A stretch of 64,000 nt of DNA from Ignavibacteria bacterium (lineage in GTDB: Bacteria; Bacteroidota; Ignavibacteria; Ignavibacteriales; Ignavibacteriaceae), in the NCBI GenBank assembly GCA_017302895.1, contig JAFLBV010000001.1, positions 1,116,001-1,180,000 on the forward strand. The letters run 5' to 3'. Under the pieces are notes generated by a model. It made no database searches. It was not told the origin of the DNA and saw only the letters and a list, made by a program, of their open reading frames with translations. Shown in pieces: positions 57,479 through 62,913 of this stretch. The stretch's first letter is position 1, and every line of letters begins with the position of its first letter. The position numbers and the translations under genes were made by a program.

Positions 57479-57595
57479 TCAATTACTGCATGTTGATGAA
57501 CTGATATGACTCCTCAGCCGACCATCTAGATCGGAAGTCTGACCAATGTAGTAGTGATTGATGGATTTCGAGTAGAGGATGTAGAGATAAAACAT
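57479..57595 (-). pseudogene. truncated GIY-YIG nuclease copy
   Basis: The frame starts 'MFYLYILYSKSIN', has 'HYYIGQTSDLDGRLRSH' and stops after 38 residues. It duplicates the first part of the intact GIY-YIG gene at 57671-57931 nearly base for base (57510-57595 against 57846-57931) and then diverges. The catalytic C-terminal part is missing, so it is a dead partial copy. Confidence 0.85.
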
Positions 57596-57620
57596 TGAAG
57601 AAATCGGAATATTTAAAATG

Positions 57621-57646
57621 AAAAAGCCCGGAAAACCGGGCTTTTT
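57621..57646. terminator. terminator, duplicated copy downstream of broken tRNA-Asp
   Basis: AAAAAGCCCGG-aaaa-CCGGGCTTTTT forms a perfect stem with A/T runs on both sides. It works on either strand and is a copy of the terminator at 57957-57983. Confidence 0.9.
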
Positions 57647-57696
57647 GGCGGGACCGACGAGACTTCCCGATCACTCGGGACGACCTCCTGCGTGAC
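57646..57696 (-). pseudogene. 3' part of a tRNA-Asp copy, T-arm replaced by a palindrome
   Basis: The minus strand matches the intact tRNA-Asp from the anticodon-loop side ('GTCACGCAGGAGGTCG') and at the acceptor end ('AGTCTCGTCGGTCCCGCCA'). Between them the T-arm is replaced by a TCCCGA-gtga-TCGGGA palindrome (57665-57680). The 5' half is absent. It cannot fold as a tRNA. Confidence 0.85.
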
Positions 57697-57931
57697 CTGT
57701 CAGTTCCATAATAAAACTTCGACTTTTCATTTTTTTGATGAAGGATTCTCTTTTCGCAGCTTCAGAGCGGGTAGGGTATTCTTCGAAATAAATGATTTGC
57801 CAGTCGGTGGCTCTTGATGTGAAACGGGAAGATGAATTGTTATGTCTCCTCAGCCGACCATCTAGATCGGAAGTCTGACCAATGTAGTAGTGGTCTATGG
57901 ATTTAGAGTAGAGGATGTAGAGATAAAACAT
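57671..57931 (-). CDS. small GIY-YIG nuclease-domain protein next to tRNA-Asp
   Basis: The 86-residue protein starts at the ATG at 57931; a longer frame upstream is only the tRNA read as protein. It has 'MFYLYILYSKSIDHYYIGQT', the GIY-YIG equivalents YIL and YYIG, 'GRLRRHNNSSSRFTSRAT' with the conserved Arg/His, and 'SEAAKRESFIKKMKSRSF', whose Glu is the metal ligand. Its last codons and stop lie inside the broken tRNA-Asp copy and its palindrome (57665-57680). Single-domain GIY-YIG proteins have no proven role; homing or repair are guesses. The tRNA terminator (57957-57983) lies just upstream of it. Confidence 0.82.
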   Translation of the reverse strand: MFYLYILYSKSIDHYYIGQTSDLDGRLRRHNNSSSRFTSRATDWQIIYFEEYPTRSEAAKRESFIKKMKSRSFIMELTGHAGGRPE

Positions 57932-57956
57932 TGATAAAATCGGAATATTTAAAATG

Positions 57957-57983
57957 AAAAAGCCCGGAAAACCGGGCTTTTTT
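57957..57983. terminator. terminator directly after tRNA-Asp
   Basis: AGCCCGG-aaaa-CCGGGCT with A/T runs on both sides lies just past the encoded CCA on the minus strand. It ends the tRNA transcript and separates it from the GIY-YIG gene. Confidence 0.9.
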
Positions 57984-58060
57984 TGGCGGGACCGACGAGA
58001 CTCGAACTCGCGACCTCCTGCGTGACAGGCAGGCGTTCTAACCAACTGAACTACAATCCC
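57984..58060 (-). tRNA. tRNA-Asp (anticodon GTC)
   Basis: The minus strand gives a complete 77-base cloverleaf including an encoded CCA. The acceptor 5' GGGATTG pairs with 3' CGGTCCC. The D-arm has 'TAGTTCAGTTGGTTAGA'. The anticodon stem-loop CCTGC-CTGTCAC-GCAGG carries the anticodon GTC. The T-arm has GTTCGAGTC. The discriminator base is G. It is the only intact tRNA seen in the window, and partial copies of it flank it on both sides. Confidence 0.96.
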
Positions 58061-58106
58061 AAAAAACTTTGTTCGAAGGAGCGACCTTCCCGATGAATCG
58101 GGACGA

Positions 58107-58129
58107 CTAACCAACTGAACTACAATCCC
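58107..58129 (-). pseudogene. 5' fragment of a tRNA-Asp copy
   Basis: On the minus strand these 23 bases equal the first 23 of the intact tRNA-Asp (GGGATTGTAGTTCAGTTGGT...). After that the copy is interrupted by TCCCGAT-tc-ATCGGGA (58088-58103), the same type of palindrome that breaks the copy at 57646-57696. It is a tRNA fragment only. Confidence 0.85.
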
Positions 58130-58253: not shown

Positions 58254-58646
58254 CTACTCGTCTCCGGTACCGAAAATTTCTTCCATTAAGCCGATGAGAT
58301 CTTTCAGGTGGAAGGGTTTCGAGAGATAGTGAGTAAATCCTCTTGCTCTAAATTCTTCTTCATCGGAATGGGCAGCATATGCTGTTATTGCAACGAGGGG
58401 TTTGTCTTTATAATGGTCGGTGACTTTGATTCTCTCCATCAATTGGGCACCATCAATTCCGTGACCAAGGTTTATGTCAATAAGCATTCCGTCATAGTCG
58501 TCTGTTGCCAGTTTTTGAAATGCTGCTGCTGCATCAGGAACCATATCCAATTGAAACCTGCCACCGAGGACTCTAAAAACCAGATTCTGACAGTAAATGT
58601 CATCTTCCACATACAGAAGTTTTTTAGCCTTTTTACCGTTTTCCAT
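58254..58646 (-). CDS. stand-alone receiver-domain protein
   Basis: The 130-residue protein is a single REC domain: 'LLYVEDDIYCQNLVFRV' (acidic pair), 'GMLIDINLGHGIDG' with phospho-acceptor Asp, 'VAITAYAAH' (Thr switch) and 'LSKPF' (Lys). It is strikingly similar to the C-terminal REC of the hybrid kinase at 60346-62913 ('KLLYVEDD', 'FTHYLSKPF' in both), so it is probably a duplicate of that domain and may share its phosphorelay. There is no output domain. Confidence 0.92.
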   Translation of the reverse strand: MENGKKAKKLLYVEDDIYCQNLVFRVLGGRFQLDMVPDAAAAFQKLATDDYDGMLIDINLGHGIDGAQLMERIKVTDHYKDKPLVAITAYAAHSDEEEFRARGFTHYLSKPFHLKDLIGLMEEIFGTGDE

Positions 58647-60345: not shown

Positions 60346-62913
60346 TTAATTTTCCTGGAAAATTGCGTCTATCAGTTCGCTAAGGTCTTTCAGGAAAAAC
60401 GGTTTTGAAAGATAGTGGGTAAATCCTTTTTCCAGAAATTCAGCCCTGTCGGAGAATGCAGCGTAAGCGGTGATGGCCACAAACGGTTTGCCTTTGTTTT
60501 CTTCCATCGATTTGACTTTTTGCATAAGTTGCACACCATCCAGGCCATGTCTAAGATTGATATCGATCAGAAATCCGTCGTAAACATTCGTTTTCAATCG
60601 TTGCTGAGCTTCCTCGGCATCGATCACAAAATCGAGATAATATTTATCTGAAAGTACTCTTGATACAATATTCTGGCAAAACTGATCATCTTCCACATAG
60701 AGCAGTTTTTTTTCAGAGTGGCGAATTTCTTTTCCCATTAGTGTTTCCTCTTCGATAATAAGTTCTTCATTAGATTTATTAATAACTTCGTCGACGGGCA
60801 GAACAACCTTGAAAACTGTGCCGTTTTTGGGTTCACTCTCAAGTGAAATGGTGCCACCGAGCAATTCGACATATTTTTTGGTAATGGAGAGTCCGAGACC
60901 CGTTCCTTCGAAGGTTCTGCCCCTTCCTTCACTGGCTTGTCTGAAGGGAGCCCAAATAATTTCCTGTTTGTCATGCGGAATGCCGATACCTGTATCGGTA
61001 ACAGTAACAGTCAAAAGATTTTTACTCTTCGAGTTGATAAGATTAACCGATAATTCAACTTTACCCGCTTCTGTATATTTTACAGCATTGCTGACGAGAT
61101 TATTCAGGATAGAGCGGAGGATTCTCGGATCTGAAACGATGAAAATACCTTTTTTTTGTTCGTTCACAATAAAATCGATTTTCTTCGACTCAGCAGCCTC
61201 CTTATAAGTGAAATAAATTTCATTAATGAAATCTGCCAGGCTTACCGTTTCAACAACACATTTTACTTCAGAGAACTCAGCCTGAGAGAGCGAGAGAATT
61301 TTGTTGAGTGTATCAGTCAGCCTCTCCGCACTTTTCATGATGTTTGCAACCATCTGTTTTTCACCGGGTTCTTTTACATTTTCTGAAAGAAGCTGAGCAT
61401 AACCCCAAATTCCCACAAAAGGTGTCCTGAGTTCGTGGCTCATGTTTGCGAAGAAATAAGACTTTATCATATTCATTTCTTCTGCTTTTTCTTTTGCAGC
61501 TGTCAGTTCAGCCAGGGTTCGTTCCTGTTCTGTAACATCCCTGCCGACGAGTAACAGATTCTTTATCTTCCCGTTTTCCAGAATAGGAGAAGACCTCACT
61601 TCCACAGGAACCCTTGCTCCATTCTTTTTCAGTAACACAGTTCTGTAGGTAAGCACTCTGTTGTCACCTGAGAACCGGAGGTTCTTCCTTTTTTCCATTT
61701 CGGGGAGGAGTTCAGGAGGAACGAGACGCGAGAGATGCATGCCGGTGAGTTCTTCCTTTGTGTATCCTGAAACTTGAATTCCTGCGCTGTTAATATAAAC
61801 AATCTTCTGGTGCAGGTCATGCAGAACCACGAGGTCGGGCATGGTTTCGGTAAGGAGTCTGTACTTTTCTTCCGATTTTCTCAGAGTATTCTCGGTTTCC
61901 TTCATTTCAGATACATCCTGAATGTTGGCAAGAACAAAATCCTTGTCGCCGAGTGTAATCATTTTCGCTGAAAGGAGAGCAGTAAAAACCTCACCTGATT
62001 TTCGAATAAATCTTGTTTCACGGTCTGTACAAAATCCATTCACCCTGATATCATCAACTATCCTGTCTCTTTCTTCGATGTCTTCCCAGAGTCCAATATC
62101 CAGAGTCGATTTACCAATCGCTTCTTCCCGGGGAATTCCTGAGATGAAATTAAATGCTGTATTACAGTCGGCTATTTCATCCTTTGATCTGTCAATAAGG
62201 AGTACAGCAACAGGTGAAGACTCAAAAATGAGCTTGAGGTGTTCATTCGAAACAGTAACATCATAGTTTAATCTCTGGTTAAGCAGCAGGACAAATCCAA
62301 ATGTCCAGATCGAGCCGACAATAATGGAATCCAACATCGGGATGTAGTTTAACGGGTGGGGGTCAAGAAATTCAACAGGCCCGGGGCTTATGAACATTTG
62401 CCAGGAACGGTAAATCAGTACAAGCGAGTGAATTACAAAAGTGACCGCCAAAAAATGGAATATGTTGTCAGTATTTTTTTGATGCTTCTTAAACATTTCA
62501 AAAGCGATCAAACCGGAAATCACACAAACGGTTATATTCAAAATTATTCCGCGGGCGGTAATATCATTGATAACAAAAAGGAAATAAAGGAAGGTGGCAA
62601 GTGCCAATAAACCAATACTGCTTGAGAGTTTCGTCTTCAGCTTTTTATCCTGAAAAGCCAATAAACCATTATAAATAAAGATGGTCCCTGTTATGATAGC
62701 CGAGTTTTGAAGGATGACGACGATCTCGAAGATTCCGGGGATATCTCGAAAAAGCATGAGCCCGAAGCCGAATACCTCCATGGCATTCCATGCCAACCAC
62801 CAGCCTGTTCCTTTGTATTGCCTGTTGGTCCTGTAGAGGATAAGGAAGACTGAAAACTGAATCAAGTGGAGAACACCTGTAACAAGCGCAAGTGTTCGCA
62901 TATCTAATAGCAT
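60346..62913 (-). CDS. membrane hybrid histidine kinase: 7TM-PAS-PAS-HisKA-HATPase-REC
   Basis: The 855-residue protein has about seven N-terminal membrane helices (residues 5-215). Two PAS domains follow (about 225-340, 'VLLIDRSKDEIADCNTAF'; about 350-470, 'KIVYINSAGIQVSGY'). The kinase has HisKA with 'YFFANMSHELRTPFVGI' (phospho-His) and HATPase ('SNAVKYTEAG', 'DTGIGIPHDK', 'GTGLGLSITKKYV'). The C-terminal REC (about 738-855) has 'YVEDDQFCQN' and 'LIDINLRHGLDG'. The REC domain is a close paralogue of the stand-alone REC at 58254-58646. Output is likely through phosphotransfer to a regulator elsewhere. Confidence 0.93.
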   Translation of the reverse strand: MLLDMRTLALVTGVLHLIQFSVFLILYRTNRQYKGTGWWLAWNAMEVFGFGLMLFRDIPGIFEIVVILQNSAIITGTIFIYNGLLAFQDKKLKTKLSSSIGLLALATFLYFLFVINDITARGIILNITVCVISGLIAFEMFKKHQKNTDNIFHFLAVTFVIHSLVLIYRSWQMFISPGPVEFLDPHPLNYIPMLDSIIVGSIWTFGFVLLLNQRLNYDVTVSNEHLKLIFESSPVAVLLIDRSKDEIADCNTAFNFISGIPREEAIGKSTLDIGLWEDIEERDRIVDDIRVNGFCTDRETRFIRKSGEVFTALLSAKMITLGDKDFVLANIQDVSEMKETENTLRKSEEKYRLLTETMPDLVVLHDLHQKIVYINSAGIQVSGYTKEELTGMHLSRLVPPELLPEMEKRKNLRFSGDNRVLTYRTVLLKKNGARVPVEVRSSPILENGKIKNLLLVGRDVTEQERTLAELTAAKEKAEEMNMIKSYFFANMSHELRTPFVGIWGYAQLLSENVKEPGEKQMVANIMKSAERLTDTLNKILSLSQAEFSEVKCVVETVSLADFINEIYFTYKEAAESKKIDFIVNEQKKGIFIVSDPRILRSILNNLVSNAVKYTEAGKVELSVNLINSKSKNLLTVTVTDTGIGIPHDKQEIIWAPFRQASEGRGRTFEGTGLGLSITKKYVELLGGTISLESEPKNGTVFKVVLPVDEVINKSNEELIIEEETLMGKEIRHSEKKLLYVEDDQFCQNIVSRVLSDKYYLDFVIDAEEAQQRLKTNVYDGFLIDINLRHGLDGVQLMQKVKSMEENKGKPFVAITAYAAFSDRAEFLEKGFTHYLSKPFFLKDLSELIDAIFQEN

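Follow-up and report, generated by a model that had tools for sequence, protein, structure and literature searches.

A probable family of minimal mobile elements formed by a small GIY-YIG nuclease gene and a palindrome-broken tRNA copy at bacterial tRNA genes

Here we describe a compact unit, composed of a terminator, a GIY-YIG nuclease gene of 80-100 residues and a pseudo-tRNA, that adjoins the tRNA-Asp gene in the stretch of Ignavibacteria bacterium DNA analysed (64,000 nucleotides, hereafter the window) and recurs at tRNA genes of other genomes. Taken together, the evidence indicates that these units are probably a family of minimal mobile elements that invade tRNA genes, in which a free-standing, single-domain gene of the homing type uses the tRNA both as landing pad and as homology arms, in the manner of the phage nuclease SegB.

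Read on the minus strand, the locus runs from tRNA-Asp nt 1-23 through a palindrome and a short tail to the intact tRNA-Asp, a terminator and the GIY-YIG ORF, and from there through tRNA nt 35-50, a further palindrome, tRNA nt 59-77 and a second terminator to a truncated GIY-YIG copy (Table 1). This order, together with a tandem duplication, had been proposed for positions 57479-58129 in the first-pass annotation, and we could confirm both; the duplication spans 152 nt (94% identity) together with 23 nt that match exactly, at a spacing of 336-338. Also borne out was the proposal that the nuclease takes its stop codon from the palindrome, the end of the ORF overlapping the tRNA fragment before it. 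The palindrome pattern matches four times in the window against 0.06 expected. Beyond what the first-pass annotation noted, each palindrome takes the place of a particular tRNA segment, which is the anticodon arm in the upstream copy and, in the downstream copy, exactly nt 51-58 (T arm). The intact tRNA-Asp, which is the only tRNA that ARAGORN calls in the window, is uninterrupted, and the nuclease gene lies within neither an intron nor an intein. There is no other gene in the unit, and in the window genome the nuclease is found at this locus only. An Rfam scan returned no RNA family above threshold except the intact tRNA, with no match for the pseudo-tRNAs and no intron family. A role for the pseudo-tRNAs as folded RNA was considered and rejected: the fold of the 5' copy is no more stable than that of shuffled sequences (z -1.0), and the low energy of the 3' copy comes mostly from the terminator. 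Elsewhere in the window, positions 58254-58646 encode a stand-alone response-regulator receiver that is a close paralogue of the receiver domain ending a nearby hybrid histidine kinase (60346-62913).

Table 1. Features of the tRNA-Asp locus in the window, tandem arrays in complete genomes, and short non-coding units
Feature	Location	Position or size	Strand	Detail
5' pseudo-tRNA, tRNA-Asp nt 1-23	window	58107..58129	-	exact 23-nt match to intact tRNA
Palindrome TCCCGATTCATCGGGA	window	58088..58103	-	in place of anticodon arm of 5' pseudo-tRNA
Rest of 5' unit	window	58061..58087	-	AGGTCGC..., with TTTTTT at end
Intact tRNA-Asp(GTC)	window	57984..58060	-	ARAGORN; Rfam tRNA 69.2 bits
Element-side terminator GCCCGG..CCGGGC	window	57957..57982	-	after intact tRNA; unlike the native terminator of G003
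GIY-YIG nuclease gene, 86 aa	window	57671..57931	-	ATG 57931; TGA 57673-57671 inside palindrome 57665-57680; Pfam PF01541 E=1.1e-17
3' pseudo-tRNA, tRNA nt 35-50	window	57681..57696	-	overlaps end of nuclease gene
Palindrome TCCCGAGTGATCGGGA	window	57665..57680	-	in place of tRNA nt 51-58 (T arm)
3' pseudo-tRNA, tRNA nt 59-77	window	57646..57664	-	
Terminator, second copy	window	57621..57646	-	
Second GIY-YIG copy, truncated	window	57483..57595	-	37 codons
Tandem array	G004	315 bp x5		
Tandem array	G252	381 bp x6 or more		
Tandem array	G021	450 bp x5		
Tandem array	G161	323 bp x3		
Short non-coding units	L038	2627-2839		
Short non-coding units	L030	2007-2394		
Short non-coding units	L188			
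Short non-coding units	L165	2501-2650		
Short non-coding units	window	58061-58129		

Relatives of the nuclease were sought with the window protein as the sole query, no tRNA information being used. This search of genome contigs yielded 46 loci, 36 of which have an intact tRNA on the same strand within 0.5 kb, and most of the remainder have a tRNA fragment or lie at a contig edge; a tRNA or tRNA fragment stands beside the gene in approximately 43 of the 46. The clear exceptions are one locus from Nomurabacteria and two cases of a GIY-YIG domain joined to a restriction-enzyme-like protein; at L050 and L054 a GIY-YIG domain lies within a long reading frame resembling a type I restriction R subunit. 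A larger set comprises 141 loci, and 108 of its nuclease matches fall within 300 bp of a tRNA gene. All 108 are on the strand of the tRNA, they are spread over 15 isotypes in unrelated neighbourhoods, and the tRNA is upstream of the nuclease in 91 and downstream in 17. By rough arithmetic (about 45 tRNA genes in 4 Mb), a random gene would lie this near a same-strand tRNA in about 1% of cases. The association of small GIY-YIG genes with tRNAs that the first-pass annotation proposed to look for in related genomes is seen among relatives found by protein alone. The opposite outcome, a gene mostly away from tRNAs, does not describe the close family, but it does describe a more distant, weaker-scoring group of small GIY-YIG genes, of which 23 of 29 are solitary (not within 300 bp of a tRNA). 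We looked for a clean score cut-off between tRNA-linked and solitary genes and found none, since 6 of these 29 full-length matches below 66 bits also lie within 300 bp of a tRNA. A profile match occurs in 198 of 297 sampled Bacteroidota genomes, the weaker matches including solitary relatives. Carriage by phages or plasmids was rejected: the phage, plasmid and viral collections INPHARED, PLSDB and IMG/VR hold no close relative.

The proteins of this family consist of the catalytic domain only and have no separate C-terminal DNA-recognition domain such as that of I-TevI and the Seg proteins. Across 32 proteins Y5, Y16, G18, R26 and H30 are invariant and E62 is nearly so. A structure model of the window nuclease (pLDDT 86) finds its best PDB matches in UPF0213/YhbQ-like proteins of the same size and fold (1zg2 and 1ywl, both deposited as hypothetical proteins; sequence E=2.5e-15, structure E=3.5e-4), and structures of SLX1 are also near in sequence and fold. 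Between the window and G002, a genome that carries the unit, the nuclease has a dN of 0.127 and a dS of 0.707, and the resulting dN/dS of 0.18 points to purifying selection. Mapped on a tree of 95 nucleases, the isotype requires 29 changes, against 63 after shuffling. When each combination of isotype and host family is represented once, the counts are 31 for isotype and 41 for host family, a comparison that is indicative only because the labels differ in their number of states. Few branches of this tree are well supported, the protein being short. As judged from the tree, nuclease lineages appear to follow tRNA isotype across host families. These properties bear on the possibility that the loci are passive tandem duplications, produced by slippage or unequal crossing-over at tRNA repeats, in which the small GIY-YIG gene is a bystander. 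Tandem duplications are indeed frequent at the locus, and the second unit in the window is itself a truncated duplicate. However, a gene that recurs at so many isotypes and in unrelated surroundings, always in the orientation of the tRNA and with such a low dN/dS, does not behave as a bystander, and this explanation is strongly disfavoured and in our estimate very improbable.

Under a loose hairpin criterion (stem of at least 5), 94 of 95 tRNA-linked loci contain a pseudo-tRNA, in which a second copy of the tRNA is broken by a palindrome. The segment replaced is usually one arm, the palindrome is mostly of the form TCCCGn..nCGGGA, and it is usually flush with tRNA sequence on both sides. Which segment is replaced is set by the isotype: nt 26-35 in Asn, nt 51-58 in Asp, nt 39-56 in Cys, the whole anticodon arm in Ala, Met, Val and Pro, and the D loop in many Ser. 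The junctions are common to distant genera, with 25|36 seen 27 times in Asn and 50|59 or 51|60 seen 13 times in Asp. A perfect stem of at least 5 bp reaching the very ends is present in 48 of 92 distinct inserts compared with 0.16% of shuffled inserts. In a set of 27 distinct 16-nt inserts, chosen irrespective of pairing, 95.8% of cells are paired and 31 show double compensatory changes against 10.4 in shuffles; the paired positions thus co-vary, and the inverted-repeat form is kept while its sequence changes. Moreover, the parts of the tRNA retained differ by type. Of 114 nuclease-linked pseudo-tRNAs of the 3' type, 94 extend to the 3' end of the tRNA and 7 retain its 5' end, whereas all 22 of the 5' type begin at nt 1 and a single one extends to the 3' end. 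Two homology arms, one supplied by the intact tRNA and the other by the far end of the pseudo-tRNA, would leave such a pattern. At several loci (Table 1) we also observed non-coding units of approximately 70-110 bp, each made of a tRNA 5' end, a palindrome and an A/T-rich tail, in tandem between the promoter and the intact tRNA; these look like non-autonomous relatives or attenuators.

The palindromes are not exclusive to the nuclease element, as they also occur away from tRNAs. In the 297 Bacteroidota genomes the pattern TCCCGA..TCGGGA has 2669 matches against 259 for a control pattern, an excess of about tenfold. The control pattern, AGGGCT..AGCCCT, is itself abundant in G165 (39 copies) and G052 (28), which points to an unrelated palindromic repeat in these two genomes. 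In G004 most TCCCG palindromes lie away from tRNAs, and some (L266, L267, L270, L272) are nested in other palindromic repeats, for example ATTCCG[TCCCGA..TCGGGA]CGGAAT, as if one hairpin had replaced the tip of another. In the window genome a variable hairpin of a 23S rRNA gene has a TCCCG palindrome as its tip (L008 1501-1516, G000:C1:1532444). The tRNA-Met (L009 1350-1800, G000:C1 near 1846013) and tRNA-Asn (L010, G000:C3 near 224271) genes of the same genome are flanked by pseudo-tRNAs with palindromes and no nuclease ORF, the tRNA-Met locus having in addition a second palindrome type, AATTCGCC..GGCGAATT.

Such observations would suit a different order of causes, in which the TCCCG palindrome is an independent REP-like repeat that replaces the tips of DNA hairpins, tRNA duplications are common and the duplicates alone tolerate the insertion, and a structure-specific, SLX1-like GIY-YIG nuclease moves the palindromes as RAYTs move REPs. 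The tenfold excess, the nested and ribosomal hairpins, the gene-less pseudo-tRNAs at tRNA-Met and tRNA-Asn and the resemblance of the nuclease to SLX1 all fit this account. Palindromes are also commoner in genomes with strong nuclease matches (median 11 vs 2) and, within family f24, in genomes with the nuclease (16.5 vs 1.5, p=1.5e-5). However, f24 is the only one of the larger families in which the excess is significant, and within f28 and f30 the number of palindromes is independent of the nuclease. Free insertion would not produce isotype-specific junctions common to distant genera, and the homology-arm pattern and the displaced native terminators described below are left unexplained. We regard a palindrome-driven origin as unlikely.

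Comparison of occupied and empty loci, which the first-pass annotation had suggested as a check, revealed insertion at the tRNA both in the genus of the window and at tRNA-Ala. G003 belongs to the same genus, is 90% identical in the upstream flank and carries no family member. Its tRNA-Asp is plain and followed by its own terminator, CCCTTGTA..TACAAGGG, with neither the nuclease nor the upstream unit, which in the window measures 69 bp. In G002, where the unit is present, the same GCCCGG terminator follows the intact tRNA and a native-like CCTTGTA..TACAGGG terminator stands behind the pseudo-tRNA. In another, single genus, 17 of 73 tRNA-Ala(GGC) loci are occupied. At seven of these (L194, L195, L196, L197, L218, L239, L249) the native terminator of empty relatives is recognisable in the DNA after the last pseudo-tRNA, with local scores of 64-106, whereas the DNA after the intact tRNA scores 22-28 in six and 78 in L196. 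The high score of L196 arises because the gene-less loci that it resembles, L210 and L262, carry the same terminator; these may be old, emptied sites. At L210 the terminator, identical to that after the tRNA in occupied L196, is a possible scar of a lost element. Most tRNA-Ala elements have a terminator of the ACCCAAA..GTTTGGGT type in common, and in several testable Ala loci the native terminator is not recognisable behind the pseudo-tRNA. A clean occupied/empty pair is given by L218 and L188, with 89% flank identity. These sequences show that the unit is an insertion, through which the working tRNA gains the terminator of the element and the native terminator is displaced behind the pseudo-tRNA.

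The 17 occupied loci among the 73 entail 13 gains or losses, at least 11 of them on well-supported branches, and presence is patchy even within one genus. At four loci (L215, L239, L248, L249) the working tRNA and the pseudo-tRNA carry different tRNA alleles, a mismatch that points to recombination between alleles rather than simple local duplication. Differing anticodon stems at the tRNA-Ala locus, CTACG vs CTTGC, prompted us to consider a recoded, cleavage-resistant tRNA. Across 78 loci the nuclease is present in 6 of 21 vs about 13 of 57, showing no association with a recoded tRNA, and the idea was rejected as a general mechanism.

Exact tandem arrays with units of 315-450 bp exist in complete genomes (Table 1). 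The arrays and pseudo-tRNAs in complete genomes, and the orthologous loci of several species, rule out an assembly artefact. Chance is likewise excluded, since many independent genomes, some of them complete and in a single contig, show this arrangement. In the arrays that we traced, pseudo-tRNAs and nuclease genes are multiplied and a single intact tRNA remains at one end. This observation bears on whether the unit might instead be a module useful to its host, in which nuclease and pseudo-tRNA regulate or amplify the tRNA, for example against anticodon-nuclease defence or attack, and which spreads by that usefulness. The existence of arrays agrees with such a role, as does the amplification of tRNA genes by SegB under defence pressure (PMC13096335). 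However, the arrays traced leave the working tRNA single, the distribution is very patchy even in one genus, and comparison with characterised defence families gave weak partial matches only, with no clear match. We consider a host-useful module quite improbable.

Under the homing-type reading, which we favour, the nuclease would cut one tRNA gene at a fixed arm in an element-free genome, as the position of the palindrome suggests. Repair from the element-bearing copy, with the intact tRNA and the end of the pseudo-tRNA as presumed homology arms, would then keep the working tRNA and place the unit after it (3' type) or before it (5' type), pushing the native flank behind the pseudo-tRNA. The palindrome, exactly at the arm position in the pseudo copy, plausibly destroys the cut site and limits deletion by recombination. 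Since the intact tRNA is regenerated, further rounds or unequal crossing-over could generate exact tandem arrays. That same intact tRNA also keeps the presumed cut site, so the host itself should be cut, which counts against the reading. Also weighing against it are a protein reduced to the catalytic domain, the lack of any vehicle in the phage, plasmid and viral collections, the Ala loci with no recognisable native terminator behind the pseudo-tRNA, and the TCCCG palindromes away from tRNAs. The terminator between tRNA and nuclease suggests low read-through expression, and it is possibly by this means that the host tolerates the nuclease. The first-pass annotation's idea that a minimal unit, mobile or homing, is attached to the tRNA it targets thus gains support from both the tRNA linkage of relatives and the occupied/empty comparisons.

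SegB of phages T4 and T6 is a free-standing GIY-YIG homing endonuclease of the phage tRNA region (PMC2988022; PMC13096335). It cuts inside tRNA genes and drives tandem amplification of tRNA and segB, for which nuclease activity and recombination are needed (PMC13096335), and in this system the 3' end of the nuclease is homologous to the 5' end of the tRNA (PMC2988022; PMC13096335). By analogy, SegB offers the strongest outside support for a homing-type element. Both are free-standing GIY-YIG nucleases beside tRNA genes. Unlike SegB, the element described here resides in bacterial chromosomes, encodes a single catalytic domain of 80-100 residues, is inserted directly at the tRNA and has a predicted cleavage; it also carries a pseudo-tRNA with a palindrome in place of an arm and occurs at about 15 isotypes with specialised lineages. 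With seg-type homing genes in general it agrees in its catalytic residues, the absence of an intron or intein and an occupied/empty polymorphism, and it differs in lacking the C-terminal DNA-recognition domain. UPF0213/YhbQ-like proteins share its fold and size, whereas only the present group has the tRNA linkage, the pseudo-tRNA and the palindrome. REP/RAYT systems (PMC3733652; PMC6006769) resemble it in combining multi-copy short palindromes, some dispersed elsewhere in the genome, with one linked nuclease-type gene; here, however, the nuclease is GIY-YIG, with no HUH/Y1 transposase, and the palindromes have another sequence and lie in tRNA arms. A group I intron in a tRNA differs in that the tRNA here is intact and the Rfam scan recovered no intron. 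Integrative elements that restore the tRNA 3' end insert at a tRNA gene, keep a working tRNA and leave a tRNA fragment at the far side. All three features are seen here, but in units of 315-450 bp with no tyrosine or serine integrase and with a palindrome at the second junction.

We found no published description of this element in a search confined to open-access literature, which is not proof of novelty. Free-standing GIY-YIG homing genes at tRNAs are already known from phages; a single-domain bacterial form that swaps in palindromes and spans multiple isotypes is new to us, and there is a fair chance that it deserves a class of its own. More tentatively, the element may represent an undescribed class of chromosomal mobile elements, among the smallest autonomous ones (about 315-450 bp), that live on essential tRNA genes: the tRNA would serve as target, homology arms and part of the nuclease frame, a palindrome conserved in structure would stand in for the cut arm, and the palindromes scattered through the genome would be non-autonomous offspring.

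As tRNA genes are essential and conserved, an element that cuts one and yet leaves it working would find somewhere to land in almost any genome. The family is common in Bacteroidota, where it would explain many odd tRNA pseudogenes and tandem arrays, and the element would be a natural bacterial counterpart to phage SegB. Moreover, it makes two questions testable, namely by what means a host withstands a nuclease directed against one of its own tRNA genes, and where the arm-replacing palindromes come from.
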